From Anaerolineae bacterium (lineage in GTDB: Bacteria; Chloroflexota; Anaerolineae; Anaerolineales; Anaerolineaceae): 14,807 nt of DNA. Made by a program: the position numbers and the translations under genes. Positions 1,580-14,807 of the stretch are shown here, one piece after another (the stretch's first letter is position 1; the number at the start of each line of letters is the position of its first letter). Below the pieces are notes generated by a model that was given only the letters and a program-made list of their open reading frames with translations, did no database searches and was not told where the DNA came from. The DNA lies in contig JACRAG010000072.1 of assembly GCA_016213455.1 (NCBI GenBank), positions 1 through 14,807 of the forward strand, in the 5' to 3' direction.

Positions 1580-1813
1580 TCATCCCCCAGCGATGGCAGG
1601 AATCAGGTCCAGCCTGTCGCCATCCTGTAACGGGTGATCCGGCTCCACTTCCCGGCGGTTAACCACCAGCGCCAGCGCCTCGGGGTCATAGGTCAGCGCC
1701 AGGCGAGCCAGCGCATCGCCGACAGTCGCGCCGGCTGGCAGGTGCATGTCCAGGTGCGTGCGCCGGCCCTGCGGGGTGACCTGCTGCAGCAGGGTGTGAA
1801 AATGGACGTGCAC
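1580..1813 (-). CDS. MoaD/ThiS-family sulfur carrier linked to AOR
   Basis: This small (77-residue) ubiquitin-fold protein ends in Gly-Gly. That tail is adenylated and thiocarboxylated in MoaD and ThiS so that sulfur can be delivered. The motif LPAGATVGDAL (residues 25-35) and the acidic turn DGDRLDLIP near the end are typical of the family. The start is GTG at 1813, which overlaps the TAG stop of the AOR gene by one base, implying translational coupling. The same pairing recurs at 13793. Carriers of this type beside AOR genes are thought to supply the dithiolene sulfur of the tungsten pterin cofactor; whether it replaces or supplements a housekeeping MoaD is unknown. An upstream ATG in this frame would lie deep inside the AOR gene and is not favoured. 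Confidence 0.85.
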   Translation of the reverse strand: MHVHFHTLLQQVTPQGRRTHLDMHLPAGATVGDALARLALTYDPEALALVVNRREVEPDHPLQDGDRLDLIPAIAGG

Positions 1814-3513
1814 TACCAATTGTACAGCCCGTCCAGGTCCTCGTTGGCCACATCGAAAACCGCCTGGGTGGGCGCGAGGGGTTCTTCGGTCATCCACTCC
1901 GGCAGGCGGTCATCGGCAGCGGTGAAACCGGCACGCCGGTTGAATTCGCGCTCCAGCTTGAGCGTGGCCCGTCCCAACTGCTGTAAAATGCCTGTGTCAA
2001 CCGACCATCCGTAGCGCGCATTGAGCAGGTCACGGATCGATTCGGGTGAGGCAGCGAAGCCGAACCCGGCAAACACGCACGCGCCGAGGGTGTCATAGCC
2101 CGCCATGTTGATCTGCGCATTGCGCGAGACATCGATCTGCGCTTTGGGGTCCAGGTGATCCACCTTGGCGCGGATGGTTAATCCGGCGGTGTGATCTGCG
2201 CCCTGCGGGTTGGTGGCGTAGGTCACGCCCGTGCCCTTGATGGCGCGCGGGTCGTAGCCTGAGATGGCCTGACCCTTGACCACCGGAACACGCCGCACAC
2301 CCAGGACCTGACCGGTCAGGGCTGCGCCATGACCCAGCATGCGTCCCAGCGGCGAACCCGTATAGATTTCTCTGAGCAGTTCCCCGGCGCGCTGTGCGTC
2401 GCCGAAAGACAGCAAACCGGCTTCCGCTGCCACGCCCAGAGCAGCCCCGGCGTCAATCGAGTCGATGCCCAGATCGTTAACCAGCCAGTTCAGGCGCGCC
2501 ACGTCATCCAGGTCGCTGATGCCCAGGTTGGAGCCCATCAGGCTGATGGTCTCATATTCGAGGGGTGAGACGATCTCTTCGCCGTTTTCGCCGGCATAAT
2601 TGTTGGAGCAGCGGATGGTGCAGCCTGCCATGCAGGCGTGGGTGGGGTTGGCCTTGCCGCCGCGCTGCAGCAGCGTCTGGCGCAGGTGTTCACCCGAGAT
2701 GCTTTCCAGGTCTTCATACTGCCCGACAGAAAAATTACGCACCGGGATGGCGCCCAGGGTGTCGCACAGGCGCGCCACGCCGGCGGTGCCGAAGTCGCGG
2801 TAAACCGCGGTTTGCGGGTGGTTCATCAGCGCGGTGGTGAAGGCTTTTTGCGCTGCCTTGAAGCCCTCGGGATCGCGGATGGGTGGTTTATCGCAGCCGG
2901 CGGCGTCAAAGATGATGGCTTTGAGGCGTTTGCTGCCCATCACCGCACCCAGCCCGCCGCGTGCATTGATGCGGCTGGGGACTTTGTCTTTGTCCAGGTT
3001 CTGAATGCCGGCGGTGCGCAGCTGCATTTCTCCGCCGGGACCGATGAGCGAGATGGCAACTTTGTCACCATACCGTTCGCGCAGGCTGCGCGCGGCTGCA
3101 TACACCCCCAACCCGGCGATCGGTCCGGCTGGCTCAAAGCGCGCGCCGGACGAATCGATAACGAGGATCTGCCATTCATCCCCGGCAGGCGCGCCTTCCA
3201 GGATGAGGGCCTGGATGCCCAACAGGGCAATTTGCAGACCGGTGGACCCGCCTGCGTTGCTTTCCTTGATACCTCCGGTCAGCGGGCTTTTACCGCCCAC
3301 CGAGATGCGGTCGCAGCTGGAGAGCATGTGCCCCACCAACAGTCCGGGCGCAAAGATCAGCTTGTTGTGCGGACCGAGCGGGTCGCAGGTGGGCGGCACC
3401 TCATCCAACAGTATGCGCGCCAGCAAGCCGCGCCCGCCCAGGGTTTTCCACCCATCCGGGACGGGCGTGCGCTCCAGGCTGCGCTCATGCACATTTATTC
3501 GCCAGATTAGCAT
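1813..3513 (-). CDS. Aldehyde:ferredoxin oxidoreductase, tungsten-type (AOR 1)
   Basis: This 566-residue protein is an AOR-family enzyme. Members oxidise aldehydes to carboxylic acids with a tungsten bis-pterin and pass electrons through a [4Fe-4S] cluster to ferredoxin in the cytoplasm. The pterin-binding stretch NARGGLGAVMGSKRLK lies at about residues 183-198. A second motif, TYATNPQGADHT, is near 431-442. Cluster cysteines are C294, C298 and C302 in CMAGCTIRC, with C479 in GACVF as the probable fourth. The first spacing is CX3C, whereas Pyrococcus furiosus AOR has CX2C. The ATG at 3513 lies only 3 bases after the stop of the aminotransferase gene, and its own stop overlaps the MoaD-like gene, so the three are co-translated. 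The substrate is not readable from sequence; succinate semialdehyde from the upstream aminotransferase is a reasonable guess. Confidence 0.92.
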   Translation of the reverse strand: MLIWRINVHERSLERTPVPDGWKTLGGRGLLARILLDEVPPTCDPLGPHNKLIFAPGLLVGHMLSSCDRISVGGKSPLTGGIKESNAGGSTGLQIALLGIQALILEGAPAGDEWQILVIDSSGARFEPAGPIAGLGVYAAARSLRERYGDKVAISLIGPGGEMQLRTAGIQNLDKDKVPSRINARGGLGAVMGSKRLKAIIFDAAGCDKPPIRDPEGFKAAQKAFTTALMNHPQTAVYRDFGTAGVARLCDTLGAIPVRNFSVGQYEDLESISGEHLRQTLLQRGGKANPTHACMAGCTIRCSNNYAGENGEEIVSPLEYETISLMGSNLGISDLDDVARLNWLVNDLGIDSIDAGAALGVAAEAGLLSFGDAQRAGELLREIYTGSPLGRMLGHGAALTGQVLGVRRVPVVKGQAISGYDPRAIKGTGVTYATNPQGADHTAGLTIRAKVDHLDPKAQIDVSRNAQINMAGYDTLGACVFAGFGFAASPESIRDLLNARYGWSVDTGILQQLGRATLKLEREFNRRAGFTAADDRLPEWMTEEPLAPTQAVFDVANEDLDGLYNW

Positions 3514-3516
3514 GGT

Positions 3517-4803
3517 TTACCCGTGATTGTGTTTCAATGCGGATTCAAAGATACCCAGGGCTTCGTCAATTTGCTCCGCGGTCACCACCAGGGGCGGGAT
3601 CCAGCGGATGACGTTGTCCCACGGCCCGCAGGTCAGCAGCATCAGGCGCTGATCCAGGCAGTCATGCGCGGCTGCCTTGGCGGCAGCTTTGTCGGGCTTG
3701 CCTTGCGCATCGCGGAATTCCACGCCGACCATCAATCCCAGGCCGCGCACCTCGGCGATGCCGGGGTATTGTGCCTGCAGGTGGCGCAGCCCAGCCATCA
3801 GCTGTGCGCCGCGCGCCTGAGCATTTTCCAGCATGTGCTCTTCCTGGATGGCGCGGATGGTCGCCACCGCCGCCGCGGCTGCCACGGCATTGCCGCCATA
3901 GGTGCCGCCGTGCGAGCCGGGCGCCCATTTCTTCATGAGATCCAACCGGCTGAACACGCCCGAGATGGGCAGACCGGAGGCGAGGCCCTTGGCGACGGTC
4001 ATGATATCGGGCTGCACGCCGAAATGCTCCAACGCGAACCAGCGCCCGGTGCGGCCAAATCCAGATTGAATTTCATCCATGATCAGCAACAGGCCGTGCT
4101 TGTCGCACAATTCGCGCAGGCTCTTGAGGAAGGCGGCTGGCGGAACCACATAACCGCCCTCACCCAGCACCGGCTCAATGATCACCGCGGCGGTTTCGCT
4201 GGGGGCAGTCTGGGTCATGAGCAGGTATTCCAGCTCGTTGAGACAGAAAGCGGTGGTGGTTTCCTCATCCCAGCCGTAGCGCAGCGGGTAAGGATAGGGG
4301 GCGGAAAAAACACCGGAGGGCAGCGGCTGGTAACCGGCGCGATAGATCGTCTTGGAGGTAGTGAGAGCCATGGTGCTGGCGGTGCGCCCGTGGAACGAGC
4401 CCTGGAAGACGATGATGTTGGATTTACCGGTGGCATGGCGGGCCAGTTTGACCGCGCCTTCCACGGCTTCAGCGCCGGAATTGCTGAAGAAGAACCCGTC
4501 GATGGAAGGCGGCACCAGCGGCAACAGCGAGCGGACCAGTTCCAGCATGGGCTGGTGCAAGATGATGTTGGCCTGTCCATGCAGCAGCAGACCGGCTTGC
4601 TCGCGAATGGCTTCCACTACACGCGGATGGCAGTGGCCGGTGTTGGTCACGCCAATGCCACAGGTGAAGTCGAGATAAGGCGTGCCATCCAGGTCATAAA
4701 CGGTGCTGCCTTCGGCGCGGCTGGCAATGATATTCGTGTAATGCGTCCATACCGGGGAAAGATGCGGTAGAACGTCGCTGTAGGTAAGGATTTCCTTTTC
4801 CAT
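3517..4803 (-). CDS. gabT: Class-III aminotransferase, GABA aminotransferase-like
   Basis: This PLP enzyme has 428 residues, the usual length for the family. Motifs in order are: NTGHCHP at 54-60; FFFSNSGAEAVE, residues 104-115, for phosphate binding; FHGRT at 138-142; EPVLGEGGYVVPP from 210; MDEIQSGFGRTG with Asp243 for the PLP ring nitrogen; and Lys272 in TVAKGLASGLPIS as the Schiff-base lysine. It probably transfers the amino group of an omega-amino acid such as GABA to 2-oxoglutarate, giving succinate semialdehyde. The start at 4803 has AAGGA 5 bases upstream. The gene is tightly joined to AOR 1 (3-base gap), which would remove the aldehyde product. Class-III substrate choice is hard to read, so 5-aminovalerate, beta-alanine or another omega-amine remains possible, and the gabT symbol is provisional. 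Confidence 0.85.
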   Translation of the reverse strand: MEKEILTYSDVLPHLSPVWTHYTNIIASRAEGSTVYDLDGTPYLDFTCGIGVTNTGHCHPRVVEAIREQAGLLLHGQANIILHQPMLELVRSLLPLVPPSIDGFFFSNSGAEAVEGAVKLARHATGKSNIIVFQGSFHGRTASTMALTTSKTIYRAGYQPLPSGVFSAPYPYPLRYGWDEETTTAFCLNELEYLLMTQTAPSETAAVIIEPVLGEGGYVVPPAAFLKSLRELCDKHGLLLIMDEIQSGFGRTGRWFALEHFGVQPDIMTVAKGLASGLPISGVFSRLDLMKKWAPGSHGGTYGGNAVAAAAAVATIRAIQEEHMLENAQARGAQLMAGLRHLQAQYPGIAEVRGLGLMVGVEFRDAQGKPDKAAAKAAAHDCLDQRLMLLTCGPWDNVIRWIPPLVVTAEQIDEALGIFESALKHNHG

Positions 4804-4859
4804 TTTTATCCTTTGGTTTCAAGCGCAGATCATGGAGCGGCGATGCTGCTTGAGATGAT

Positions 4860-4892
4860 CTGCCGGACTGCCTTCAACAGGCAGTCCGGCAG
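4860..4892 (-). terminator. Intercistronic hairpin after the APC permease
   Basis: A perfect 13-bp GC-rich stem (4860-4872 with 4880-4892) has a 7-base loop. It begins 12 bases after the permease stop codon. No T-run follows on the minus strand, so it may be a partial terminator or an mRNA-stabilising hairpin rather than a full stop signal. The 100-base gap 4804-4903 contains nothing else recognisable apart from the ribosome site of the next gene. Confidence 0.5.
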
Positions 4893-4903
4893 TGTTGTGA
4901 CGG

Positions 4904-6577
4904 TTATTCCTCGTCTCCTTCACTGGCCCGGTATGGATCCACATCTGGGACGCCGGGTTTAATGAAGCGGCGGATGGGGAAGTACAGGACCATGCCCAGC
5001 GCCATGAAGACCAGCGCCCAGCCGATAGCCTGCCAGCCTTCTTCCACGATCTGGCTGTAGATCGCCAATAGAATGATGACGGTGGGGCCGAGGGTGGACA
5101 GGATCAATCCGATCATCCCGCCGGGGATGGCCTGGCGCGGGCGGTCAGGATCGGTGTAGCGCAGTTTCCACAACGCGGCAAATTCGGCCAGAATGACCAG
5201 CGTCTGCAGGAAGACGTCTGCCACCACCAGGAAGGCAAACGCCTGCCAGGAGAATATGGTGAAGATGATGCCGACAAGGACGATGGCAACCCAGGGCGTG
5301 CCAAAGCGGTTGTGAACTTTGACCATAAAGCTGGGGAACATACCGTCTTCCGCCAGCGCGAAGGGCACGCGGCTGCCGCCCAGGCTGTTGCCCACAAACA
5401 GGCCAATCATCGAGAGGACGGCTGCCATGGTGAGGATGGTGCCCATAAAGCCCGCCAGGGCTGGCCCACCCAGCGCCATGCCCACCCGGTCGCCAATCTG
5501 CGGGAATTCCCAGCCGGTCGAACTGGCCGGGTCGGCTCCCCAGGCGTCAAATTGGGATTTGACGGCAGCGATTTCACCGTCGGAGAGATCGTCCAGCGTG
5601 ATCTCCTCCGGCGCAACGCCTTTGGCCGCCGCAGCGGCTTCAATCTGGGCATCCAGTGCTTCTGAGTCGATGAAGTCACCGGCGATGCCGATGCTTTCAT
5701 TGCTGGCTTCAATTCCCCACAGCTGCCACTGGCCGTCTGCGCCCGCGCCGCCAAACAGGCCGGCGGTGACCGGCAGGGCGTAGGTGAGGATGGCGGCGAT
5801 CAGCACCAACGCCATCGCACGCGGATAGGTTTTCTTGGGGTTGACGATTTCGTCGCCGGCAGCCGAGGGCAGCTCCCAGCCCATGTAGTTCCACATGACC
5901 ACAAACAAGCCGGTGCTCAACGCGCCGAGCAGGGTTTGGCCTTCCGGGAGGAAGGGCAGGGCGATGGTCGTGCCGCTGCGAATCCACTGGATGATGCCGA
6001 GGATGGATAAAATACCCAGGGGGGTGATCATCACAATGCCGAGCCAGTTGGTGAATAGGCCCGACAGGCGCGCGCCGCGGATTTGCAGCCAGCTGATGCC
6101 CCAAATGATCAACGCCGAAACCACCCAACGCAGGAAGTCGCCGGAGAAATCTATCCCAAAGATATTGGCGCCGGTATCCAGGGGCGGGATGAAATAGCTC
6201 AGGTAGGAAGCCGCCCAGACCGGGTAGATGGCGACGTCCAGCCAGGAAACCACCCAGTTGTTCCAGCCAGCCATGAAACCGGCAAAGGGACCAAAGGCCC
6301 GCTTGATCCAGTGATAGTAACCGCCTTCGGCGGGCATCATGCTGCCCAACTCGCGCACCATGAGCACATTGGGAAGACTGAATACCAGCGGGGTGATAGC
6401 GATGAGCAAGAGCGCCAGGCCCGGACCGGAATAGCCGATCAAAGGCTCAACGCCGAACGAACCACCGCAAACGGTGAAGTAGATCAACCCAAATAGAGGC
6501 AGCAGAGTCAACTCGCGCTTCAGCTTGCGCGACTCGGATTGAATGACCTGTCCTTTGTTAGCTGGTTGAACCGCCAC
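4904..6577 (-). CDS. APC-superfamily amino acid/polyamine permease (PHS/LAT-like)
   Basis: This integral membrane carrier has about 557 residues. The chosen start is GTG at 6577, because GGAGGTGA lies 4 bases upstream and the family N-terminus follows. An in-frame ATG at 6646 has no such site. The first membrane segment carries CGGSFGVEP (about residues 37-45). Then come LGSMMPAEGGYYHW and SWLDVAIYPVW, which resemble the polyamine:H+ symporter/LAT branch of the APC superfamily (GGPFG.E, ELGS..P..GGY, D.A.YPV). Roughly twelve membrane segments can be seen. A hydrophilic, Ala/Glu/Asp-rich stretch of about 70 residues (about 293-362) interrupts the loop after TM7, where relatives usually have a short loop. 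The neighbours suggest import of putrescine or a related amine or amino acid; direction and substrate are inference. Confidence 0.85.
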   Translation of the reverse strand: MAVQPANKGQVIQSESRKLKRELTLLPLFGLIYFTVCGGSFGVEPLIGYSGPGLALLLIAITPLVFSLPNVLMVRELGSMMPAEGGYYHWIKRAFGPFAGFMAGWNNWVVSWLDVAIYPVWAASYLSYFIPPLDTGANIFGIDFSGDFLRWVVSALIIWGISWLQIRGARLSGLFTNWLGIVMITPLGILSILGIIQWIRSGTTIALPFLPEGQTLLGALSTGLFVVMWNYMGWELPSAAGDEIVNPKKTYPRAMALVLIAAILTYALPVTAGLFGGAGADGQWQLWGIEASNESIGIAGDFIDSEALDAQIEAAAAAKGVAPEEITLDDLSDGEIAAVKSQFDAWGADPASSTGWEFPQIGDRVGMALGGPALAGFMGTILTMAAVLSMIGLFVGNSLGGSRVPFALAEDGMFPSFMVKVHNRFGTPWVAIVLVGIIFTIFSWQAFAFLVVADVFLQTLVILAEFAALWKLRYTDPDRPRQAIPGGMIGLILSTLGPTVIILLAIYSQIVEEGWQAIGWALVFMALGMVLYFPIRRFIKPGVPDVDPYRASEGDEE

Positions 6578-6602
6578 TTCGTCACCTCCACAAACCAGAT
6601 TT

Positions 6603-6627
6603 ACCGGCAGGCTGCTGCGCTGCCGGT
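6603..6627 (-). promoter_or_regulatory. Leader hairpin before the APC permease
   Basis: An 8-bp stem (6603-6610 with 6620-6627) with a 9-base loop lies in the presumed 5' leader of the permease, 26 bases before its GTG. It could affect mRNA stability or initiation. No riboswitch class is recognised. Confidence 0.3.
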
Positions 6628-6657
6628 TCGAACGTTTTCCGTACAAGGGATGAACTT

Positions 6658-6663
6658 ATTATA
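6658..6663 (-). promoter_or_regulatory. Possible -10 element of a permease promoter
   Basis: A perfect TATAAT on the minus strand lies in an AT-rich patch 80 bases before the permease GTG and after the terminator-like hairpin at 6713-6747. No good -35 is found at 16-18 bases; TTGTTT sits at a short 15-base spacing. If it is real, the permease, gabT-like, AOR 1 and MoaD-like genes form a unit separate from the upstream genes. Confidence 0.4.
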
Positions 6664-6712
6664 GTATGGGTATCGCAAAAACAAACCTCTCCAGGAAGTG
6701 TGTTTGTGGCAT

Positions 6713-6747
6713 TGTCCCCGCCGCGTAAACCTCACGCGGCGGGGACA
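6713..6747 (-). terminator. Strong hairpin after the saccharopine dehydrogenase-like gene
   Basis: A perfect 14-bp GC-rich stem (6713-6726 with 6734-6747) has a 7-base loop. It starts 11 bases after the stop codon at 6759. It lacks a downstream T-run on the minus strand, so termination may be incomplete or Rho-assisted. It divides the cluster into two blocks. Confidence 0.55.
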
Positions 6748-6758
6748 GAGGGTCTGGC

Positions 6759-7964
6759 TTACATTTCTTTGATCCCGTACGGGAATCCGTAATCCGCCAT
6801 GCATTCCATGAAGGGGATGGGATCGAAAGCCTCGGGTCCCATCACGCCGGTGCCTTTCCACAGGCCTTTCGCAAGCAGTTCAAAGCCGATTACGGCGTTG
6901 AACCCGGTCTGTGCGACGACCGCCTGGCAGCCAAATTTCTCCATGCATTCCTGGTTGTCGGCCACCTGGTACAGGTACACCTGGCGGGGTTTGCCGTCTT
7001 TGATGCCTTTGACCCAGGTGCCAGCGCAGGTTTTGCCGAACATGTGGTCGCCAAGATGGGCAGGGTCGGGCAGGCAGGCTGCCACGACGTCGCGCGGGGC
7101 CACGCACACGTTTTTGACCTTGATCGGCTCTTTGTTATCCAACCCCAACATTTTAATGGTCTTGAGCACACCGATGAACTGGTCGCCCAGCCCATATTTG
7201 AAGGTGACGCGTTTGGCTTTGACCCAGCGCGGTACCAGCAGCACTTCTTCATGTTCCACGTTGACGCATTCGACCGCGCCGATGCCTTCGGGGAATTCAA
7301 AGACTTCCGGCTCGGAGAAAGGCTCGGTGGTGTACCAGCCTTTATCCGCTTCCCAGATGACCGGCGGGTTCAGGCATTCTTCGATGGTGGTCCAGATGGA
7401 GAAGTTGGGGGCAAATTCATACCCGCGCACTTCCAGATTGGCTCCGTCGCGAATGCCCACTTCTTCGATCTCATCGAACAGATAATCCTGCGCATAACGG
7501 GCGAAGACATCCGCCATGCCGGGTTCCACGCCCAGACCGACCAGCGCCAGCAAGCCTTTCTCTTCCCATGCTTTGGACTGTTCGAATTGCAGATCGCCCA
7601 GTTTAAGCCCGGTCTGGTGGAAGGGGTCGTCCTCGTGCGGTTCAGAGAGCGACATGGCCATGTCCATATAGTGGCATCCGGTGGCAAATGCGGCCTGGAA
7701 AATGGGCATGTTGTACTGCGGATCGCAGGCATTCATGATGAGGTCCACGTTGTACTTGCGGGCCAGCTCTTCAATCAAGGCCTGGTCGGATGCGTCCACC
7801 CATTCGCCGGGGAACCGTTGCGGATCGCCCAGGCGGGCCTGCACTTCATCGACACGAGCTTTGTTGTAATCGGCCAGAACCATCATCTCCAGCCAATCGC
7901 GCGGTTGCGAAATGCGTGCAATCGCTTCACCGACACCACCAACGCCAACTAATAGAATCTTCAT
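6759..7964 (-). CDS. Saccharopine / carboxynorspermidine dehydrogenase-like enzyme
   Basis: This 401-residue oxidoreductase begins with a Rossmann fold (GVGGVG at residues 7-12, with an acidic LADYN at the end of the second strand). A saccharopine-dehydrogenase-like C-terminal domain follows. The downstream segments LPDP, GTWVKGIKDGK and then an aliphatic VYLYQVAD stretch recall the carboxynorspermidine dehydrogenases, which reductively couple aspartate semialdehyde with a diamine, as well as lysine-type saccharopine dehydrogenases. ATG at 7964 follows AGAGGA at suitable spacing. The neighbours (putrescine-type aminotransferase, polyamine-like permease) favour an amine substrate. However, no carboxynorspermidine decarboxylase (NspC) gene is in view, so a catabolic or lysine role is also possible. 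Family assignment is firm; the reaction is not. Confidence 0.8.
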   Translation of the reverse strand: MKILLVGVGGVGEAIARISQPRDWLEMMVLADYNKARVDEVQARLGDPQRFPGEWVDASDQALIEELARKYNVDLIMNACDPQYNMPIFQAAFATGCHYMDMAMSLSEPHEDDPFHQTGLKLGDLQFEQSKAWEEKGLLALVGLGVEPGMADVFARYAQDYLFDEIEEVGIRDGANLEVRGYEFAPNFSIWTTIEECLNPPVIWEADKGWYTTEPFSEPEVFEFPEGIGAVECVNVEHEEVLLVPRWVKAKRVTFKYGLGDQFIGVLKTIKMLGLDNKEPIKVKNVCVAPRDVVAACLPDPAHLGDHMFGKTCAGTWVKGIKDGKPRQVYLYQVADNQECMEKFGCQAVVAQTGFNAVIGFELLAKGLWKGTGVMGPEAFDPIPFMECMADYGFPYGIKEM

Positions 7965-7985
7965 ACAATCCTCTCTGTGAATAAT

Positions 7986-8015
7986 CCCGGCGCTTTCGGG
8001 GCACGCAGCGCCGGG
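7986..8015 (-). promoter_or_regulatory. Intercistronic hairpin between symporter and dehydrogenase genes
   Basis: A 9-bp stem (7986-7994 with 8007-8015) fills most of the 60-base gap between the two genes. It leaves just enough room for the AGAGGA ribosome site of the dehydrogenase gene. There is no T-run. It is probably an RNA-processing or stability element within a shared transcript. Confidence 0.4.
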
Positions 8016-8024
8016 TTGAAACGC

Positions 8025-9629
8025 TTAGTGATCCATCTCGTCCGGTCGCAGCTTGCGCAGCGCGTCGCGCAGCGGCAGGATCCCCATGCGGTTTTTGAAC
8101 GCCAGGGGTTTGTTATCCACATCCAACAAGGGACGCGGCGCATCACGTTTTTGCGTCAAGAGCGATACCACGACCACCAGGATGAGCGAGACCAGGAATG
8201 CGGGCACCGAACCGATGTAGGTGGCATCCCAAATGGCCAGTTCCGCATCGCCGGCGTTGATCTCAATGGTGGTTGGGTAGAGCAGCGGCAGAGAGATCAA
8301 CCAGGTGACCCAACCGCCAATAAAACCTGCCAGCGCGCCAGTCTGGTTGGTTTTCTTCCAATACATGCCCAGCGCGAAGGGCGCGAACATGCCCACCAGG
8401 ATGACCGTCCAGGCGAAGACGGAGAGCTTGTAAATCGTCTGTGCAAAGAGCGCCATGAGCAGGCTGATCACGCCGATGACCAGCACCATCCAGCGCGTCC
8501 ACATCAGGTTGGCTTTTTCACTCAGGTTCTTTTTGAAGAACGGCAGGATGTTTTCGGTGAAGACGGATGCGCCCGCCAGGATGGAACTGTCGCTGGTGCT
8601 CATCAGGGCCGAAGCCAGCGCGGCGATGAAGATGCCGGCGAGGAAAGGTGACAGGTTGTCTGTGGCGGCAGTGACCAGCAGGAACTCGGTTTGCTCAGGC
8701 GCAATGTTGGGGTTCATGGCAAACATGGCGATGCCGATGAGGGGTGAGAGCACGCCGAAACCCAGGTAGAGGATGCCCGCCATGTAGGTGCCGTGCACCG
8801 CGGTGGCTTCATTGCGCGCCGACATGGAGCGCTGCATCAAGTCCTGGGCGGCAATGCTGCCCAATCCCAGGGCCATCCAGGCGCCCAGCCAGTAAGTCCA
8901 GCCCAGCCCGCCCTGATAGCCCAGGTAGCCCTCGCCGGGGATGGGCAGGAGTGTGAAGGGCTTGGAGACATACAACGAGCCGGCGTTGGCCAGGAAGGCG
9001 TCCCAGCCGCCCGCGGCGTTCATCACGCCCACAAAGATGAGCGTAACCCCGCCGGCGGTGAGGAACATTTGCATAAAGTCCAGCAGGGTGTCAGCCCACA
9101 TGCCGCCCATCATTGTGTACGAGATGACGATGGTCGCCACAAAGAGCATGCCGATCTCTACCGGCCAGCCGAACAGGGCGTGAACGATATTGCCGCCTGC
9201 CACGATCTGCGCGGCGGTCCACCCGAAGTAGGTGATCATCTGGATGGCGGCTGCGGCCATGCCCATCCACTTGCCAAAGCGCCGCTCAAAGAAATCCACC
9301 ACCGTGAGGTAGCGTGCGCGGCGCATCAGACGGATGAAGAAAAAGCCGGAAACGAACAGGCACAGCGCTGCGCCGAATGGGTCAAAAACCACGCCCTGAA
9401 AACCGTACTGGTAGGCGGTGGAGCTGGCGCCCATCAAGGTTTCGGCGGCGAACCAGGTCGCCATGATGGATGCGCCTGTGAGGTAGATGGGCAGGCGGCG
9501 GCCCGCCACAATGTAGTCGGTGGTGTTGTTCACTTTTCGCGAGGCAAGATAGCCGATCAACATGCGCACCGCAAAGAAAACGACGATGCAGGCCACTATG
9601 ATAGTCAGGTTTGATGCAGGGATTTCCAT
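8025..9629 (-). CDS. Sodium:solute symporter (SSS/PutP-PanF-like)
   Basis: This is a membrane transporter of 534 residues with about thirteen hydrophobic segments. The N-terminus has the SSS pattern: DYIVAGRRLP at about 38-47, then TWFAAETLMGASSTAY, where the unwound TM1 usually lies. YTMMGGMWADTLLDFMQM (about 170-188) matches the family signature. ALMSTSDSSILAGAS, in the TM8 region, carries the Ser/Thr pair expected at the Na2 site. ATG at 9629 follows a G-rich ribosome site. The gene begins 21 bases after the patA-like stop codon, so the two are very probably one transcript. The family imports amino acids, carboxylates, vitamins or sugars with Na+. Context suggests an amine, amino acid or related carboxylate, but the sequence does not fix the substrate. 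Confidence 0.9.
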   Translation of the reverse strand: MEIPASNLTIIVACIVVFFAVRMLIGYLASRKVNNTTDYIVAGRRLPIYLTGASIMATWFAAETLMGASSTAYQYGFQGVVFDPFGAALCLFVSGFFFIRLMRRARYLTVVDFFERRFGKWMGMAAAAIQMITYFGWTAAQIVAGGNIVHALFGWPVEIGMLFVATIVISYTMMGGMWADTLLDFMQMFLTAGGVTLIFVGVMNAAGGWDAFLANAGSLYVSKPFTLLPIPGEGYLGYQGGLGWTYWLGAWMALGLGSIAAQDLMQRSMSARNEATAVHGTYMAGILYLGFGVLSPLIGIAMFAMNPNIAPEQTEFLLVTAATDNLSPFLAGIFIAALASALMSTSDSSILAGASVFTENILPFFKKNLSEKANLMWTRWMVLVIGVISLLMALFAQTIYKLSVFAWTVILVGMFAPFALGMYWKKTNQTGALAGFIGGWVTWLISLPLLYPTTIEINAGDAELAIWDATYIGSVPAFLVSLILVVVVSLLTQKRDAPRPLLDVDNKPLAFKNRMGILPLRDALRKLRPDEMDH

Positions 9630-9650
9630 GGTCCCCCGTGCCTTTCTTGC

Positions 9651-11009
9651 TTATTTCTCCTGGGCAATTTCTTTGAGGGTATCTTCCAGCCGGTCGACAA
9701 CCGCATCCAGATCCGCATATGAAATGATCAGCGGTGGTTCGATGCGGATGGTATTGGCCGAGATGAGCGTGCCAGCCACCAGCACGCCGCGTTTGAACAG
9801 CCCCGCGGCGACTTTGTAGCCGTCATGCCCGTCATGGAAGTGCATGCCGATCAGCAGGCCCTTGCCGGTGACATTTTTCATAATGCCCGGATAGCGTTCG
9901 ATAAGCTCCTTCAAGCGCCCCATCATGTAATCGCCTTTTTGCGCGGCGGTTTCCCACAAGCGTTCGCGCAGGGTCACATTGATGGCAGCGATGGCAGCGC
10001 TGCAGGCCAGGGCGCCGCCGCCGGTGGTGGTGGTGTGAATGAAGGGATTGGGGTACATCATCACCTGCCAGATCTCCTCGGTGGAGCAGAATGCCGAAAT
10101 GGGCATCACCCCGCCGCCCAGTGATTTGGCGAGTGCGATGATGTCGGGCTTGACGTCCCAATGGTCCACGCCCCACATCTTGCCCGTGCGGCCCATGCCG
10201 GTTTGCACTTCGTCGGCAATCAGCAGCACACCGTAATGGCGGGTGGCCTCGCGAATGCGCGGCCAGAAGTCATCGGGTGGGACAATGGCGCCGGCTTCAC
10301 CCTGGATGGGTTCCATGATCACCGCGGCGATATCCACGCCGACTTTGTCACAAATATCAAGCTGGCGTTCCACAGCATCGGCGTCGCCAAACGGCACGTG
10401 ATAGACCGGCCCGCCGTACAGGATACCAGGCGGCTGACGGTAATCGGATTTGCCCATCATGCTCAGCGAGCCCATGGTTTTGCCGTGGAAACCCTTGAGC
10501 GCGGTGATGAATCCGCTCTTTTTGGTGTACATTTTGGCCAGTTTGATCGCGCCTTCGTTGGCTTCGGTGCCGGATGCGCAGAAGAAACTGTATTTGATGT
10601 CGCCTGGCAGGATCATCGCCAGCAGGCGCGCCAGAACGCCGCGCAGCGGATCGATCAACTCCTGTGATGGCATGGGGGTGTGATCCAGCTGGGCTTTAAC
10701 GGCGGCAATCACTTCAGGATGCCCCCAGCCCAGGTCCATCATGCCGTAACCGCCCAGGCAGTCGATGAACTCGCGCCCCAGCACATCATGAAAGCACGCA
10801 CCGTTTCCTGTCCACTCGGTCATGGCCCAATCGCCGGCTTCGGTGACCGATTTACGGTACTCCAGCCAGCCTTTGTTGAAGTGCTCGGCAAAGTTGTATT
10901 GAGATTCCTCAATGATCCACTTGCCGACCTCTTCGGGAACGTTTTTTTGCTTGATGATGTCCAGCCAACGTTCAGAATACTGGACTGCTTGCTTAAATTC
11001 CGACCCCAT
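9651..11009 (-). CDS. patA: Putrescine aminotransferase (PatA/YgjG-like)
   Basis: This PLP-dependent class-III aminotransferase has 452 residues, close to the 459 of E. coli PatA. Blocks shared with PatA include GWLEYRKSVTEAGDW (47-61), EFIDCLGGYG, SQELIDPLR, KYSFFCASGTEANEG, EPIQGEAGAIVPP, DEVQTGMGRTGKM with Asp266, ALAKSLGGGVMPI with Lys295 as Schiff-base lysine, and VAGTLISANTIRIEPPL near the end. PatA moves an amino group from putrescine to 2-oxoglutarate, giving 4-aminobutanal (which cyclises to 1-pyrroline). ATG at 11009 is chosen over an in-frame ATG at 11066 because AGGAG lies 7 bases before it. It is the first structural gene of the minus-strand cluster and follows the Lrp gene. Cadaverine or another diamine could also be a substrate. 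Confidence 0.88.
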   Translation of the reverse strand: MGSEFKQAVQYSERWLDIIKQKNVPEEVGKWIIEESQYNFAEHFNKGWLEYRKSVTEAGDWAMTEWTGNGACFHDVLGREFIDCLGGYGMMDLGWGHPEVIAAVKAQLDHTPMPSQELIDPLRGVLARLLAMILPGDIKYSFFCASGTEANEGAIKLAKMYTKKSGFITALKGFHGKTMGSLSMMGKSDYRQPPGILYGGPVYHVPFGDADAVERQLDICDKVGVDIAAVIMEPIQGEAGAIVPPDDFWPRIREATRHYGVLLIADEVQTGMGRTGKMWGVDHWDVKPDIIALAKSLGGGVMPISAFCSTEEIWQVMMYPNPFIHTTTTGGGALACSAAIAAINVTLRERLWETAAQKGDYMMGRLKELIERYPGIMKNVTGKGLLIGMHFHDGHDGYKVAAGLFKRGVLVAGTLISANTIRIEPPLIISYADLDAVVDRLEDTLKEIAQEK

Positions 11010-11178
11010 AATGATTCTCCTTTGGCAAGAAAAAACCGCTGATGATACGGGGCGTAAACACGCCAACCGCGGGCAATACCAGAAGAACCGGGTCCATCGT
11101 CTCCGCAGGCACCGTTGGGCACGGCCTGCGCTGCAACGTTAAAATGTCGAGTCAGTAATGAGAAAACTGGCGAGGCGG
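11010..11178 (-). promoter_or_regulatory. Intergenic leader between lrp-like gene and patA-like gene
   Basis: This 169-base gap holds no gene. It contains small inverted repeats: GGCGT/ACGCC at 11051-11064, CGCAGG/CCTGCG at 11104-11130, and a 9-bp pair at 11148-11156 and 11192-11200 straddling the end of the regulator gene. None has a T-run. It probably carries the promoter of the patA-like gene, but I could not identify convincing -35/-10 boxes. Confidence 0.3.
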
Positions 11179-11655
11179 TCAGGCTTGTATGACTGACTCG
11201 GGGATGCGCCAGCGGGCATCATCTTTAATAACAAACGGCACCAGCGAGGTGGAAGTGCGACGTACCCCGGCGATGCGACCGATGACTTCAGTGACGAAGG
11301 CGTACAGCTCCTGGTTGTTGCGCGCCACCAACTGGATGGAGATATCCCGTTCGCCGGTCGCGCAGGCCACATAGGTCACGGTTTCATACTCGGCTAATTT
11401 TTGCGCCAGCTCGACCACCATGCCCGGCTCGACTTCAATGAACACGTCTGCGACCACCGGGAAGCCGATTGCCTTGGGGTCCACGACCGCGCTGACCGTG
11501 AAAATTTTGCTTTCGAGCAGCCGTTCCAGCCGGTACCGCACCGCCCGTTCGGTGATGTTCCCGATGGAGCGGGCGAGGTCGGCGCAGGACATGCGCCCGT
11601 TTTCGGTGAGCAAATCCACAATTTGTTTGTCGATGCGGTCGAGTTGGTTTGACAT
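11179..11655 (-). CDS. Lrp/AsnC-family transcriptional regulator
   Basis: This 158-residue regulator has the standard two-part plan. An N-terminal helix-turn-helix (about residues 4-55, LDRIDKQIVDLL ... ERAVRYRLERL) is followed by a RAM/AsnC ligand-binding and oligomerisation domain (about 65-140, with the ATGERDISIQLVA strand). Members bind DNA as dimers to octamers and sense amino acids or related metabolites. The ATG at 11655 has only a weak ribosome site. It sits between the minus-strand catabolic genes and the divergent AOR 2 gene, as local Lrp-type regulators often do, so it may control both and itself. An Lrp-type box lies in the shared intergenic region. Whether it activates or represses cannot be told. 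Confidence 0.9.
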   Translation of the reverse strand: MSNQLDRIDKQIVDLLTENGRMSCADLARSIGNITERAVRYRLERLLESKIFTVSAVVDPKAIGFPVVADVFIEVEPGMVVELAQKLAEYETVTYVACATGERDISIQLVARNNQELYAFVTEVIGRIAGVRRTSTSLVPFVIKDDARWRIPESVIQA

Positions 11656-11662
11656 ATCACTA

Positions 11663-11684
11663 TTGATTTTAGCGAAAAAATCAA
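11663..11684. promoter_or_regulatory. Inverted repeat just upstream of the lrp-like gene
   Basis: A perfect 8-bp inverted repeat TTGATTTT/AAAATCAA (11663-11670 and 11677-11684) with a 6-base centre starts 8 bases before the regulator's ATG. It may be an autoregulatory operator, or a leader hairpin that limits translation. Confidence 0.45.
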
Positions 11685-11703
11685 CAAAAGATAGATGTTT
11701 TAA

Positions 11704-11716
11704 TTCCGTTTCGGAA
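11704..11716. promoter_or_regulatory. Short palindrome in the divergent promoter region
   Basis: TTCCG and CGGAA flank a TTT centre, giving a 13-base palindrome between the regulator and AOR 2. It is a candidate operator; the binding protein is unknown. Confidence 0.3.
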
Positions 11717-11721
11717 ATGCT

Positions 11722-11736
11722 TAGAAAATTTTAAGG
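11722..11736. promoter_or_regulatory. Lrp-type binding box
   Basis: TAGAAAATTTTAAGG agrees at 13 of 15 positions with the E. coli Lrp consensus YAGHAWATTWTDCTR. It lies 67 bases from the regulator's start and 32 bases before the AOR 2 -10 element, a sensible place to act on both promoters. AT-richness makes chance matches more likely, so this is moderate evidence. Confidence 0.45.
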
Positions 11737-11741
11737 GAAGA

Positions 11742-11755
11742 AACGGCAAACGGCA
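11742..11755 (+). repeat. Tandem heptamer repeat at the AOR 2 -35 region
   Basis: AACGGCA occurs twice in direct succession. It occupies the position where the -35 hexamer of the AOR 2 promoter would lie, so it may be an activator site. Confidence 0.3.
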
Positions 11756-11767
11756 GACGAATTTCTC

Positions 11768-11773
11768 TATAAT
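11768..11773 (+). promoter_or_regulatory. -10 element of the AOR 2 promoter
   Basis: A perfect TATAAT lies on the plus strand in the divergent region. No good -35 hexamer lies 16-18 bases upstream, which would fit an activator-dependent promoter. Transcription from here would give a leader of about 115 bases; a small GGATC/GATCC inverted repeat (11790-11814) lies in it, but I recognise no riboswitch. Confidence 0.55.
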
Positions 11774-11894
11774 AGTATTGGAGCTGGTCGGATCGCGCCC
11801 GGCAAGGCAGATCCACAGGTTGTAAAAATACCTCCATTCACCCCGAACCATTCGAGATCGTTTGACCGCGTTGGAAAAGAGCAAAGGAGTTCTT

Positions 11895-13790
11895 ATGCCC
11901 GGCAGCATTAATCAGCGCATTCTGCATGTCGATCTTTCATCCGGAAAAACCTGGATTGAGACTCCCGATGAGGGCTTCTACCGCATGTATGGCGGGGGAA
12001 GCGCGATGGGTGTCGTTTACATCCTGCGCGAAGTACCGGTCGGCGCCGACCCGTTGGGACCGGACAATGTGCTGACCATGTTCACCGGCGTTCCCACCGG
12101 TCTGCCCATCTCCGGGCAGTCGCGCCTGGCGATCAATTGCAAATCGCCCATCAGCGGGGCCATTGGCGACTCGCAAAGCGGCGGTTTCTTTCCGGCGGCG
12201 TTGAAAGCGGCGGGTTTCGACGGCATTGTGGTGAGCGGCAAGGCGCCAGAGCCGGTGTACCTGTACCTGCACCATGCCCAGGCGGAGATTCGTCCGGCAG
12301 GCGGATTGTGGGGCATGTTGACCGCGGACGCGGATGAAGCCATCAAGCAGGAACTGGATGACCCCAAGCTTGAAGTGCTGGGCATTGGTCCGGCGGGTGA
12401 AAAGCTGGTGTGCATGGCGGCGATCATGAACATGCACAATCGCGCCAATGGACGCACCGGTGTAGGCGCGGTGATGGGCTCGAAGAACCTGAAAGCTGTG
12501 GCGGTGAAGAGCACCGGCAAAGTGGAAGCTGCCAACCGGGCTGCCATCACCGCCATGCAGCGCGGCGGTACAAAGAGCATTGACCAGTACCCGGACGTGA
12601 AAGGCCTGGGCCTTAACGGCACCGCGGATGTGGTGGCATTTCAAAATTCAATCGGCTCGCTGCCGACGCGCAATTACGGCATGGGATCGTTTGACGGCTT
12701 TGAGTCGCTGTGCGGCGATCGCATGACCGATACCATCCTGAAGGAACGCGACACCTGCTACTCCTGCTCGGTGCGCTGCAAACGGGTGGTGGAAACCGAA
12801 TTTATGGGAAGCAAGGTTGACCCGACCTACGGTGGGCCGGAATATGAGACGATCGCTACGTTCGGCTCGTACTGCTTGATTTCCGACCTGAACGCGGTGG
12901 CGTTGTGCAACCAGATCTGCAATGCATACGGCATGGATACCATTGCGACAGGCGCGACAATCGCCTTTGCCATGGAGTGCTATGAAAACGGCCTGCTGAC
13001 CCAGGCGGACACCGGTGGGCTGGACCTGCGTTTTGGCAACGCGGAAGCCGCGGTGACGCTGGTGGAGCAAATTGCCCGCCGCGAAGGCCTGGGTGATCGC
13101 CTGGCGGAAGGTTCGGCGCGCTTTGCCGAGACGCTGGATGCGCGCGCGCTGGATTATCTGGTGACGATCAAGAAGACCGAACTGCCGGCGCACATGCCGC
13201 AATCCAAGAAGAGCCTGGGTGTGATCTATGCCGTCAATCCCTTTGGCGCAGATCACCAGTCTTCCGAGCACGACCCGATGTATGAGGAAGGCGGCTTCCC
13301 CCATTATTATGAGCGGCTGGCGCTGTTGGGTTTGAAAGACGTTCAACAACCCGGGGCTATGACGGATGAAAAGATTCGCTTTGCCTACCTGGGCGAGTGC
13401 TTCTATTCGGCAATGGACAGCTATTCACTGTGCCAGTTTGTATGGGGACCCTCCTGGCAGTTGTATGGTCCCAAGGAGATGGCGGAGCTGATTTCGGCAG
13501 CCAGTGGATGGGATGTGACCGTGGAAGAGATTCTCGCGGTGGGCGAACGGCGCCTGAACCTGATGCGGGTTTTCAACGCGCGCGAAGGCTTCACCCGGGC
13601 CGAGGACGTGCTGCCCAAACGCTTCAGCAAGCCGCTGGATGGCACTGGACCTTCGGCGGGCGTGGCCTACCCGGCGGAGGACCTGGAACGCTATAAAGAT
13701 GTGTATTACCGCTTTGCTGGTTGGGACCCGAAAACCGGCAATCCGGATCCCGCCCGCCTGGCGGAACTCGGTCTGGCGTGGGCTGCCTGA
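11895..13790 (+). CDS. Aldehyde:ferredoxin oxidoreductase, tungsten-type (AOR 2)
   Basis: The protein has 631 residues, near the length of classical AORs. Pterin-binding GRTGVGAVMGSKNLKAV starts at about residue 186. Cluster cysteines are C288, C291 and C295 in CYSCSVRC (CX2CX3C, the same numbers as in P. furiosus AOR), with C513 in YSLCQF as the probable fourth. The PEYETIATFGS block (from about 315) and VIYAVNPFGADHQ (about 443-455) resemble other AOR active-site segments. ATG at 11895 is chosen because AGGAG lies 5 bases before it; a longer frame begins at 11862 without support. It is divergent from the Lrp gene and is followed after 2 bases by its own MoaD-like gene. It oxidises an aldehyde and reduces ferredoxin; 4-aminobutanal or succinate semialdehyde are context-based candidates. 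Confidence 0.93.
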   Translation: MPGSINQRILHVDLSSGKTWIETPDEGFYRMYGGGSAMGVVYILREVPVGADPLGPDNVLTMFTGVPTGLPISGQSRLAINCKSPISGAIGDSQSGGFFPAALKAAGFDGIVVSGKAPEPVYLYLHHAQAEIRPAGGLWGMLTADADEAIKQELDDPKLEVLGIGPAGEKLVCMAAIMNMHNRANGRTGVGAVMGSKNLKAVAVKSTGKVEAANRAAITAMQRGGTKSIDQYPDVKGLGLNGTADVVAFQNSIGSLPTRNYGMGSFDGFESLCGDRMTDTILKERDTCYSCSVRCKRVVETEFMGSKVDPTYGGPEYETIATFGSYCLISDLNAVALCNQICNAYGMDTIATGATIAFAMECYENGLLTQADTGGLDLRFGNAEAAVTLVEQIARREGLGDRLAEGSARFAETLDARALDYLVTIKKTELPAHMPQSKKSLGVIYAVNPFGADHQSSEHDPMYEEGGFPHYYERLALLGLKDVQQPGAMTDEKIRFAYLGECFYSAMDSYSLCQFVWGPSWQLYGPKEMAELISAASGWDVTVEEILAVGERRLNLMRVFNAREGFTRAEDVLPKRFSKPLDGTGPSAGVAYPAEDLERYKDVYYRFAGWDPKTGNPDPARLAELGLAWAA

Positions 13791-13792
13791 GC

Positions 13793-14026
13793 GTGCGCAT
13801 TCAGGTTGTGCTGCATTCCTATCTGCGCGAAAAACTTCCAGCGCAGGCCAAAGGTCGGGCTGCGCTGGATTTGCCCGAGGGGGCCACGGTGGCGGATGTG
13901 TTCCACAGGCTGGGCCTGCCCGAACAGGCAGCCTGGTCGGTGAACGGTGTGCTGCAGCGCGATCTATCCTTGCGTCTGGCGGAGGGCGATGAGCTGAGGG
14001 TCTTCCGCCAGGGAGCGGGGGGATAA
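13793..14026 (+). CDS. MoaD/ThiS-family sulfur carrier, second copy
   Basis: This small protein of 77 residues is identical in length to the carrier at 1580 but quite different in sequence. It has LPEGATVADVFHRLGL in the middle, EGDELRVF before the end, and a Gly-Gly C-terminus. The start is GTG at 13793, two bases after the TGA of AOR 2, so translation is probably coupled. It should be thiocarboxylated on the last glycine and supply sulfur for the pterin cofactor of AOR 2. The GTG start and tight coupling copy the arrangement after AOR 1. The Gly-Gly tail argues against it being a chance reading frame. Confidence 0.85.
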   Translation: MRIQVVLHSYLREKLPAQAKGRAALDLPEGATVADVFHRLGLPEQAAWSVNGVLQRDLSLRLAEGDELRVFRQGAGG

Positions 14027-14082: not shown

Positions 14083-14807
14083 ATGCCGCTTACCTTTGAC
14101 CTGCCGCTTGAGAAATTAAAGACCTACACCGGGATCAACCCCCGGCCTGCCGATTTTGACGCTTATTGGGATGATGCGCTGGCTGAAATGCGTGCGCTGG
14201 ACCCGCAAGTGGAGCTGGTTCCGGCGGCTTTTCAGACGCCGTATGCCGAATGTTTTCACCTGTAGTTCACCGGGGTGGGCGGCGCGCGTGTGTATGCCAA
14301 GCTGCTGCGCCCGCGCCAGGCATCTATGCCGCACCCGGCGGTGGTCATGTTCCACGGTTACACCGGTCAATCCGGCGATTGGACCGACAAATTGCCGTAT
14401 GTTGCGTTGGGCTACAGCGTGGCTGCGCTGGATTGCCGCGGACAGGGCGGTCGTTCGGAAGACGCCAGTGATGTTATTGGCAACACGCAGAACGGGCACA
14501 TCATCCGTGGTCTGGAAGATGCGCTGGCTGGACGGCCTGAAAAACTGCTTTATCGCCAGATTTACCTGGATTGCGCGCAGCTGGCGGGGATCGTGATGGA
14601 CATGCCGGATGTGGATGCCGCGCGGGTTGGCGCCACCGGCGGCAGTCAGGGCGGCGCGTTGACCGTGGCTTGCGCCGCGCTGGAACCGCGCATTGCCCGC
14701 CTGGCCCCGGTTTTCCCTTTCCTGTCCGATTACAAACGCGTGTGGGAGATGGACCAGGCCAAAGATGCTTACGAGGAATTGCGCGGTTATTTCCGGCGCT
14801 TCGATCC
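14083..14807 (+). pseudogene. CE7 acetyl xylan esterase-like gene with an in-frame amber stop
   Basis: The first 60 codons (FDLPLEKLKTYTG ... DFDAYWDDAL) match the start of CE7 esterases (acetyl xylan esterase / cephalosporin-C deacetylase), alpha/beta hydrolases that remove acetyl groups from sugars. TAG at 14263-14265 interrupts the frame. Beyond it the same frame stays open to the window end and keeps family features: FTGVGGARVYAKLLRP, MFHGYTG, LDCRGQGGRSE, and the nucleophile elbow GGSQGG. Counting the stop as codon 61, the serine is at 188, the position known for the Thermotoga maritima enzyme. No frameshift is involved; one base change from Tyr, Gln or Trp would explain it. GGAGG precedes ATG at 14083. 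The 3' end is cut by the window. It may be a fresh pseudogene, a sequencing error, or a read-through case. Confidence 0.8.

Follow-up and report, generated by a model that had tools for sequence, protein, structure and literature searches.

Introduction

The transaminase route for putrescine breakdown in Escherichia coli proceeds through PatA, PatD, GabT and GabD, and this textbook pathway requires NAD(P)-linked aminobutyraldehyde and succinate-semialdehyde dehydrogenases. A rather different group of aldehyde-oxidising enzymes is represented by the class I tungsten oxidoreductases (WORs), such as PfAOR and BmWOR, which PMC13328260 describes as single-subunit enzymes linked to ferredoxin. According to the abstract of that source, only 5 of 92 WOR clades include a member whose physiological role has been defined, and its main text nowhere uses the terms putrescine, polyamine, aminotransferase or semialdehyde. 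Among the matches listed in a search of titles and abstract openings in PMC, with subscription papers and preprints outside the search, none dealt with the breakdown of putrescine, spermidine or GABA by way of an aldehyde oxidoreductase (AOR).

Here, we describe a gene cluster from a member of the Anaerolineae, contained in a 14,807-nucleotide stretch of DNA (the window), that has PatA-like and GabT-like aminotransferases in common with the E. coli route, and for which we propose the same aldehyde intermediates. It differs from that route in lacking PatD and GabD, in place of which it carries two AORs, and in its additional genes for a regulator, two carriers and a dehydrogenase that we call SacDH. 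We consider it probable that the cluster serves anaerobic polyamine breakdown towards succinate, with the AORs replacing NAD-linked aldehyde dehydrogenases (ALDHs).

Results

Gene content of the window

Most of the cluster lies on the minus strand, where a ThiS/MoaD-like gene, moaD1 (1580..1828, an ORF of uncertain start; Pfam ThiS, 44 bits), overlaps the end of AOR1 (1813..3513). AOR1 lies 4 nt from the gene for a GabT-like class III aminotransferase (3517..4803), beyond which lie an APC-family permease (4904..6646, start uncertain), SacDH (6759..7964), an SSS-family sodium:solute symporter (8025..9629; TIGR00813, 192 bits, above cut-off) and PatA (9651..11009, in an ORF that extends to 11066). 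An Lrp/AsnC-family regulator (11179..11655, minus strand; Pfam AsnC_trans_reg and an HTH_AsnC-type domain) sits between the divergent units, with AOR2 (11895..13790, in an ORF extending to 11862) and a second ThiS/MoaD-like gene, moaD2 (13784..14026, start uncertain; Pfam ThiS, 23.7 bits, barely above cut-off), on the plus strand. Each of the small ThiS/MoaD-like genes thus overlaps one AOR, and both encode proteins ending in Gly-Gly.

These ORFs and their Pfam and NCBIfam matches bear out the initial annotation, made from the sequence alone, which had listed all of these genes except SacDH. Its statement that the window holds no PatD- or GabD-type ALDH also stands, with tblastn searches using five ALDH references giving nothing better than E = 0.23. 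The description of the permease as polyamine-like is only partly upheld: the protein does belong to the APC family (Pfam AA_permease_2, 164.6 bits), but the polyamine label lacks sequence support because every NCBIfam transporter model scores below its cut-off. In the source genome as a whole, which is 61.6% complete, there are two Aldedh matches, an acylating ALDH and ProA.

PatA is probably of the putrescine aminotransferase type, scoring 587.9 bits with model NF008570, slightly below the cut-off of 612, and having the putrescine aminotransferases 5h7d and 4uox as its best solved relatives (E about 1e-128). The GabT-like protein has PuuE and GabT as its top solved matches (343 bits) and falls under the cut-off of every NCBIfam GABA-transaminase model, including NF005993 (548.8 bits against 574); it also matches the 2-aminoadipate transaminase model at 352 bits, for which the cut-off is 650.

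SacDH as a proposed amine dehydrogenase

SacDH has a saccharopine-dehydrogenase fold and is a relative of carboxyspermidine dehydrogenase (CASDH), matching the solved structures 4rl6, 4ina and 8deb with E values from 9e-61 to 6e-48. It shares with CASDH (8DEB; PMC10413350) the fold family and the His-Glu-Glu triad which, along with Glu188, is present in 91 of 91 aligned SacDH rows. It differs in having an NAD-type pocket, with Asp32 in the window's protein and Asp or Glu in place of the NADP phosphate-binding Ser34 of CASDH in all 78 close SacDH rows, as well as in its location within a catabolic cluster and in having no NspC decarboxylase as a partner. Carboxyspermidine decarboxylase NspC was above cut-off in none of 24 genomes, which yielded two weak matches, and SacDH itself scores 195.9 bits in the curated CASDH family, where the cut-off is 800. 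Since the CASDH catalytic residues are retained, the pocket is of the NAD type and the decarboxylase partner is missing, we predict that SacDH oxidises spermidine or a related amine.

Features of the two AORs

Both AORs have the AFOR N- and C-terminal domains, the Fe4S4 cysteines and the catalytic Glu, His, Tyr and Thr of class I WORs, AOR1 with a Cx3C in place of Cx2C. In an alignment of 49 AOR1 rows, cysteines 294, 298, 302 and 479 are each kept in 48-49, and Thr243, Glu321, Tyr420, His441 and Arg448 in all 49; AOR2 retains Cys 288, 291, 295 and 513 and Glu458-His459-Asp460 in 69 of 69. They share with PfAOR and BmWOR, as described in PMC13328260, a single large subunit, four cluster cysteines and the catalytic Glu and His, but are about 30% identical to each other, have a proposed role in amine catabolism and, in the case of AOR2, carry His in place of Tyr427, a replacement also noted in another AOR in PMC12096430. 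No gene for a small FeS or NAD subunit stands beside either AOR, the neighbours being MoaD, GabT and Lrp. Acting as single tungsten subunits, both would use ferredoxin as their acceptor; an [FeFe] hydrogenase that might serve as a ferredoxin sink was found in none of six genomes.

AOR2 scores 359 bits against PfAOR (1aor). AOR1 reaches 217.7 bits with PfAOR and a lower 184.8 bits with the formaldehyde ferredoxin oxidoreductase of Pyrococcus furiosus, for which we know of no link to GabT. PMC12096430 gives glutaric semialdehyde as the suggested native substrate of the Pyrococcus enzyme, a compound close to succinate semialdehyde, which we propose as the substrate of AOR1. Judging from alignments only, the charged residues past the catalytic His appear to differ between the two (Arg448 in AOR1 against Glu458 and Asp460 in AOR2), in a region where the alignment is ambiguous because AOR2 has an insertion of about 13 residues past that His. 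Pairing with MoaD was rejected as a general rule for these enzymes: a MoaD-like ORF lies just downstream of 7 of 50 AOR1 and 2 of 69 AOR2 ORFs (at least 50% identity), so the pairing is either a trait of some lineages or obscured by MoaD sequences too diverged for BLAST.

Conserved neighbourhoods

The arrangement of the window recurs in an isolate, Longilinea arvoryzae KOME-1, where moaD2-AOR2 is divergent from Lrp-SSS-SacDH-APC-GabT-AOR1-moaD1, and because of this near-identical arrangement the cluster is more than a product of chance or mis-assembly. No PatD- or GabD-type ALDH was found in L. arvoryzae, and no PatA orthologue either, despite the nearly identical cluster. More widely, SacDH orthologues keep company with PatA and the AORs, PatA being present in 61 and PotD in 50 of 75 loci, and many relatives also carry the polyamine importer PotABCD and a pair consisting of a malonate-semialdehyde-type dehydrogenase (MMSDH) and an aminotransferase. 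The importer and this pair suggest that the substrate is not putrescine alone but polyamines of the spermidine type, with a branch through beta-alanine. AOR1 orthologues also occur without SacDH, and in many genomes alone; in 13 of 20 selected loci of this kind the stretch lacks a GabT-like gene. More distant SacDH homologues adjoin proline dehydrogenase.

Natural exchange of AORs and ALDHs

In a sister family to the window's own, AOR2 is absent from 13 of the 55 genomes with SacDH. All 13 have an aminobutyraldehyde dehydrogenase above cut-off, compared with 4 of the 42 that have AOR2, and in 10 of the 13 at least one such gene is located no more than 10 kb downstream of SacDH, directly adjoining it in five. 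Ten of these 13 genomes have no AOR gene anywhere. Across the 75 loci, AOR2 (45 loci) and the aminobutyraldehyde-type ALDH ABa (10 loci) never share a stretch, nor does AOR1 (30 loci) with SSm or SucD (16 loci); none of the six aldehyde enzymes occurs in 16 of the stretches. SSm is under the cut-off of every NCBIfam model, with lactaldehyde dehydrogenase as its top score. Within the window's own family, the position directly after GabT, which is held by AOR1 in the window, is taken in five of seven loci examined by a CoA-acylating ALDH related to SucD, its best solved match being succinate-semialdehyde dehydrogenase 8cei.

Four mixed loci (L121, L244, L262 and L288), which keep AOR2 and have ALDHs but no AOR1 in the stretch, also speak for such replacement. 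Other observations weigh against the proposed reading. Three genomes (G503, G509 and G552) have both AORs plus an aminobutyraldehyde dehydrogenase, and a further three (G530, G544 and G546) have AOR2 with neither AOR1 nor an aminobutyraldehyde-type ALDH. The missing PatA of L. arvoryzae, the AOR1 orthologues without SacDH, the 16 stretches devoid of aldehyde enzymes, the low model scores of SSm, the lack of an [FeFe] hydrogenase and the incompleteness of the source genome count on the same side. The swap events are few, because the SacDH tree needs only two changes of ALDH type, one of them forced. A reading of the counts as many independent swaps (Fisher p = 1.6e-9) was set aside, since the ALDH type forms almost one group on this tree.

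The comparison of neighbourhoods across the Anaerolineae proposed in the initial annotation shows that the genes stay linked and that, in related clusters, AORs and ALDHs exclude and replace one another, and this natural swapping is the best evidence for the AORs in ALDH roles. The earlier suggestion that the AORs stand in for PatD- and GabD-type dehydrogenases gains support from it, but was incomplete in omitting SacDH, and its putrescine-to-succinate scope was too narrow given PotABCD and the MMSDH pair in relatives and the missing PatA in a cultured one.

Discussion

These genes and their neighbourhoods lead to the following scheme, in which the activities of all the enzymes, the identity of the polyamine, the substrates of the carriers and the electron acceptor are inferred. 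A polyamine would be taken up by the APC or SSS carrier, or by PotABCD in many relatives, and SacDH would cleave spermidine or a related amine oxidatively. PatA would convert putrescine to 4-aminobutanal, AOR2 would oxidise one or more aminoaldehydes to GABA and/or beta-alanine, GabT would produce succinate semialdehyde from GABA, and AOR1 would oxidise this to succinate, with ferredoxin reduced at both AOR steps. A more specific version is possible, but is offered tentatively. SacDH would have arisen from the CASDH fold as an NAD-dependent spermidine dehydrogenase, running a CASDH-type reaction in reverse on the decarboxylated compound to give putrescine and 3-aminopropanal. The two AORs would share 3-aminopropanal, 4-aminobutanal and succinate semialdehyde and, with PotABCD, PatA, GabT, an omega-aminotransferase and MMSDH, as found in many relatives, would form a complete oxygen-free route that stores electrons in ferredoxin. 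Many Anaerolineae would have kept this route, which would alternate with a version based wholly on NAD(P).

The cluster might instead degrade lysine or another amino acid. SacDH would then act in the manner of a lysine 6-dehydrogenase or a saccharopine dehydrogenase, 2-aminoadipate semialdehyde would be oxidised by an AOR, and the GabT-like protein would serve as an aminoadipate transaminase. The shared fold family, the match to the 2-aminoadipate transaminase model, the clusters without PatA and the proline dehydrogenase beside more distant SacDH homologues all accord with this, but we consider it unlikely given that SacDH is accompanied by PotABCD, PatA and aminobutyraldehyde dehydrogenases, that its solved matches at E <= 0.001 do not include 3abi, a lysine 6-dehydrogenase, and that the invariant His-Glu-Glu triad is absent from lysine 6-dehydrogenase according to PMC10413350. 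It is more doubtful still that SacDH works in biosynthesis, as a carboxyspermidine or carboxynorspermidine dehydrogenase, in a cluster that balances polyamine synthesis and removal. Its nearest solved relatives are regarded as CASDH and the catalytic residues are retained, but this reading sits poorly with the lack of NspC, the NAD-type residues at the NADP-binding position and a score far below the family cut-off.

A role for the AORs in the detoxification of mixed aldehydes, near amine genes by coincidence, would match that given for several class I WORs in PMC13328260, as well as the genomes with AOR1 alone. Since the AORs are exchanged slot by slot for substrate-type ALDHs or SucD, and their neighbours are conserved across many genomes, such a coincidence is improbable. 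The AORs could also reduce acids, such that amines are made from GABA or succinate, and PMC10816221 reports that an AOR takes part in the reduction of organic acids; the importers in the cluster and the replacement by NAD(P)- and CoA-linked ALDHs fit catabolism better, and we regard this direction as highly improbable.

If polyamine breakdown through the AORs is correct, amine catabolism joins the roles of tungsten enzymes, and two further AOR groups gain specific, testable substrates by way of a natural swap. It also suggests that polyamines may be used anaerobically without flavin oxidases. Longilinea arvoryzae and Levilinea saccharolytica are isolates suited to testing these predictions.

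Gene content of the window

At 14,807 bases, the window is one complete contig (C514) of a source genome that is 61.6% complete and lies in 594 contigs. Its minus strand carries a membrane glycosyltransferase-like protein (start only) and an arsenate-reductase-like phosphatase, both named from their translations as read, together with MoaD1, AOR1, a GabT-like aminotransferase, an APC permease, a saccharopine-dehydrogenase-fold gene (SacDH, 6759-7964), an SSS symporter, PatA and an Lrp regulator. AOR2, MoaD2 and then an esterase-like frame lie on the plus strand. All genes named in the initial annotation were confirmed, but SacDH was missing from that account; its statement that the window holds no PatD- or GabD-type aldehyde dehydrogenase (ALDH) also held, the best match to five ALDH references having E = 0.23. 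The two Aldedh matches in the window's own genome are, from the translations as read, an acylating ALDH and ProA; the former, EutE/AdhE-like (L001, contig C476), adjoins genes reading as bacterial microcompartment shell proteins. An in-frame TAG interrupts the acetyl xylan esterase-like frame (14083-14805) 60 codons in, and could mean that this is a pseudogene, that the sequence contains an error or that the true start lies downstream of it.

Exchange of AORs and aldehyde dehydrogenases

The initial proposal that the two predicted tungsten aldehyde oxidoreductases, AOR1 and AOR2, stand in place of PatD- and GabD-type dehydrogenases survives a genuine test, in a more specific form. Related clusters exchange AORs and ALDHs. 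SacDH is carried by 55 genomes of the sister family (f2), 42 with an AOR2 orthologue and 13 without (E ≤ 1e-150). An aminobutyraldehyde dehydrogenase above the NF010000 cut-off occurs in all 13 AOR2-less genomes, in two copies in 12 of them, and in 4 of the 42 with AOR2. At least one lies no more than 10 kb downstream of SacDH in 10 of the 13, directly adjoining it in five (gap <400 bases) and at 0.9 to 8.1 kb in the other five; in L130, a 60-residue SacDH remnant immediately precedes the dehydrogenase. They lie about 40 kb from SacDH in G436, and on different contigs from it in G046 and G269. Nine AOR2-less f2 loci hold a trio of two aminobutyraldehyde dehydrogenases flanking a third ALDH (ABa-SSm-ABb), and the L132 contig stops inside SSm. 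In G064, the scores are 667.8 for ABa and 674.4 for ABb (cut-off 615), and SSm falls under every cut-off, its top model being lactaldehyde dehydrogenase. AFOR_N genes are absent from ten of the AOR2-less genomes and single in three; five f2 genomes of the AOR type carry between 4 and 7. Of seven loci fetched from f1, the family to which the window belongs, five have a CoA-acylating ALDH (SucD) after GabT. Its top solved match is 8cei, a succinate-semialdehyde dehydrogenase (acetylating), at 372 bits, against 323 bits for acetaldehyde dehydrogenases, and its top NCBIfam model, acylating sulfoacetaldehyde dehydrogenase, is under cut-off.

Across the 75 SacDH loci fetched from the order, 45 stretches with AOR2 and 10 with ABa show no overlap, nor do 30 with AOR1 and 16 with SSm or SucD. 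The most telling evidence comes from mixed loci, arranged as SacDH-AOR2-SSm-ABb-GabT (L121, L244), as GabT-SSm-AOR2 (L288), or with AOR2 (two frames), SSm and GabT (L262). The L121 genome (G500) has no AOR1 genome-wide at E ≤ 1e-120; for L244, L262 and L288 its absence covers the fetched stretch. The two overlapping AOR2 frames of L262 (12721-14650; 515 + 97 aligned residues), which adjoin SSm, may reflect a frameshift or a sequencing error.

On the simplest reading, AOR2 fills the ABa slot, acting on the aminoaldehyde, and AOR1 that of SSm or SucD, acting on succinate semialdehyde. Catalytic roles are given to Thr243, Glu313 and His448 of PfAOR in PMC12096430. In the alignments as read, both AORs have equivalents of all three; PfAOR Tyr427 corresponds to Tyr420 of AOR1 and to His433 of AOR2. 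Just past the catalytic His, AOR1 has an invariant Arg448 (49/49 rows) and AOR2 an invariant Glu458-His459-Asp460 (69/69 rows), opposite charges that would fit substrates bearing a carboxylate and an ammonium group respectively, although this is suggestive only. AOR1 (1813-3513) also has a Cx3Cx3C cluster motif, near-invariant in its group, where Cx2Cx3C is usual.

The exclusion of AOR2 and ALDH gives a naive Fisher p of 1.6e-9 that should not be taken at face value, since on a tree of SacDH from all 55 f2 genomes the ALDH-type cluster requires two changes, one of them forced by well-supported branches. The cassettes were probably inherited or moved as whole units. An aminobutyraldehyde dehydrogenase, remote from SacDH, accompanies both AORs in G503, G509 and G552; in G530, G544 and G546, AOR2 occurs without AOR1 or an aminobutyraldehyde dehydrogenase above cut-off; and 16 of the 75 stretches have none of the six aldehyde enzymes. 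AOR1 orthologues also occur without SacDH and, given that 13 of 20 such loci chosen lack a GabT-like gene within the stretch, the occurrence of AOR1 extends beyond the polyamine pathway. No AOR-based pathway of this kind is described in the PMC literature among the matches listed (titles and abstract starts; subscription papers and preprints lie outside it).

SacDH and the proposed link to polyamines

SacDH was found in 97 of the order's 301 genomes, the window's included, and stretches were fetched for 75 of the other 96; counts over these include many contigs cut short and leave out L041 and L046, which are not members of the order, and L125, another contig of a genome already represented. 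PatA occurs in 61 of the loci, MMSDH in 54, GabT in 53, PotD in 50, PotA in 44 and AT062, an aminotransferase of the PRK06062 type, in 37. A typical f2 order is AT062-MMSDH-PatA-PotABCD-Lrp-SacDH-AOR2-GabT-AT046-AOR1. At L040, PotA passes the potA subfamily threshold; the best models for PotB, PotC and PotD are Pot proteins, with scores below cut-offs; and MMSDH scores 553.9 (cut-off 448.5). PotABCD points to polyamines, and the pairing of MMSDH and an aminotransferase suggests that malonate semialdehyde is formed from beta-alanine, itself the product expected from the C3 moiety of spermidine. Besides SacDH, the exchange and the division of labour between the AORs, we add to the initial account the relatives' polyamine importer and, probably, a spermidine/beta-alanine branch. 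AT046, a PRK07046-type transaminase (L040:14495-15856; 656.5 bits, cut-off 425), keeps its place next to GabT in 31 of the 75 loci, and the proposed pathway has no step needing it.

The nearest solved structures to SacDH are 4rl6, 4ina and 8deb (E 9e-61 to 6e-48). PMC10413350 argues that the first two are carboxyspermidine dehydrogenases (CASDH); it assigns His228-Glu229-Glu230, Glu188 and Ser144 to the active site and places Ser34, Thr36, Lys39 and Arg45 about the phosphate of NADP. We aligned the window protein with 90 homologues, giving 78 close rows (at least 66% identity, window included) and 13 distant ones. The His-Glu-Glu and Glu188 equivalents are kept in all 91; at the Ser144 position, 70 of the close rows have Ala, and 12 of the distant ones have Ser or Thr. 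The second strand, ending in Ser in CASDH, ends in Asp (76) or Glu (2) in the close rows and in Asp in the distant ones, and such an acidic residue is the usual sign of NAD preference. The decarboxylase NspC is above cut-off in none of 24 genomes, with two weak matches. Taken together, these features show that SacDH derives from the CASDH family, although a biosynthetic CASDH function is unlikely; an NAD-linked oxidative role on a polyamine is the better inference.

Two relatives are in culture. The gene arrangement of Longilinea arvoryzae KOME-1 (L222) is almost that of the window (AOR2 72% and AOR1 74% identical), and its two Aldedh matches, P5CDH-like and EutE-like, are both under NCBIfam cut-offs. 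Its genome has no PatA orthologue (top match 39%), which suggests that SacDH may itself deliver an aldehyde there. In Levilinea saccharolytica KIBI-1 (L226) the cluster reads SacDH-GabT-AOR1-moaD1; PatA (77%) lies elsewhere, and there are four Aldedh matches: MMSDH (above cut-off), P5CDH-like, benzaldehyde-dehydrogenase-like and EutE-like.

SacDH homologues at varying distance (58-76%) lie near a proline dehydrogenase gene in L041, L054 and L056, and a contig labelled Spirochaetaceae (L292) holds SacDH-ABb-GabT, possibly through transfer out of Chloroflexota or mis-binning. A second type of cluster (L187, L191, L207, L213) joins GabT and AOR2 with a distant SacDH relative (27-29% identity), with AOR1 also in L187 and L191. 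These loci also contain an ALDH and a HemL-like class III aminotransferase, three of the four have Pot transporter genes, and L187 and L207 have an additional FAD amine-oxidase-like gene.
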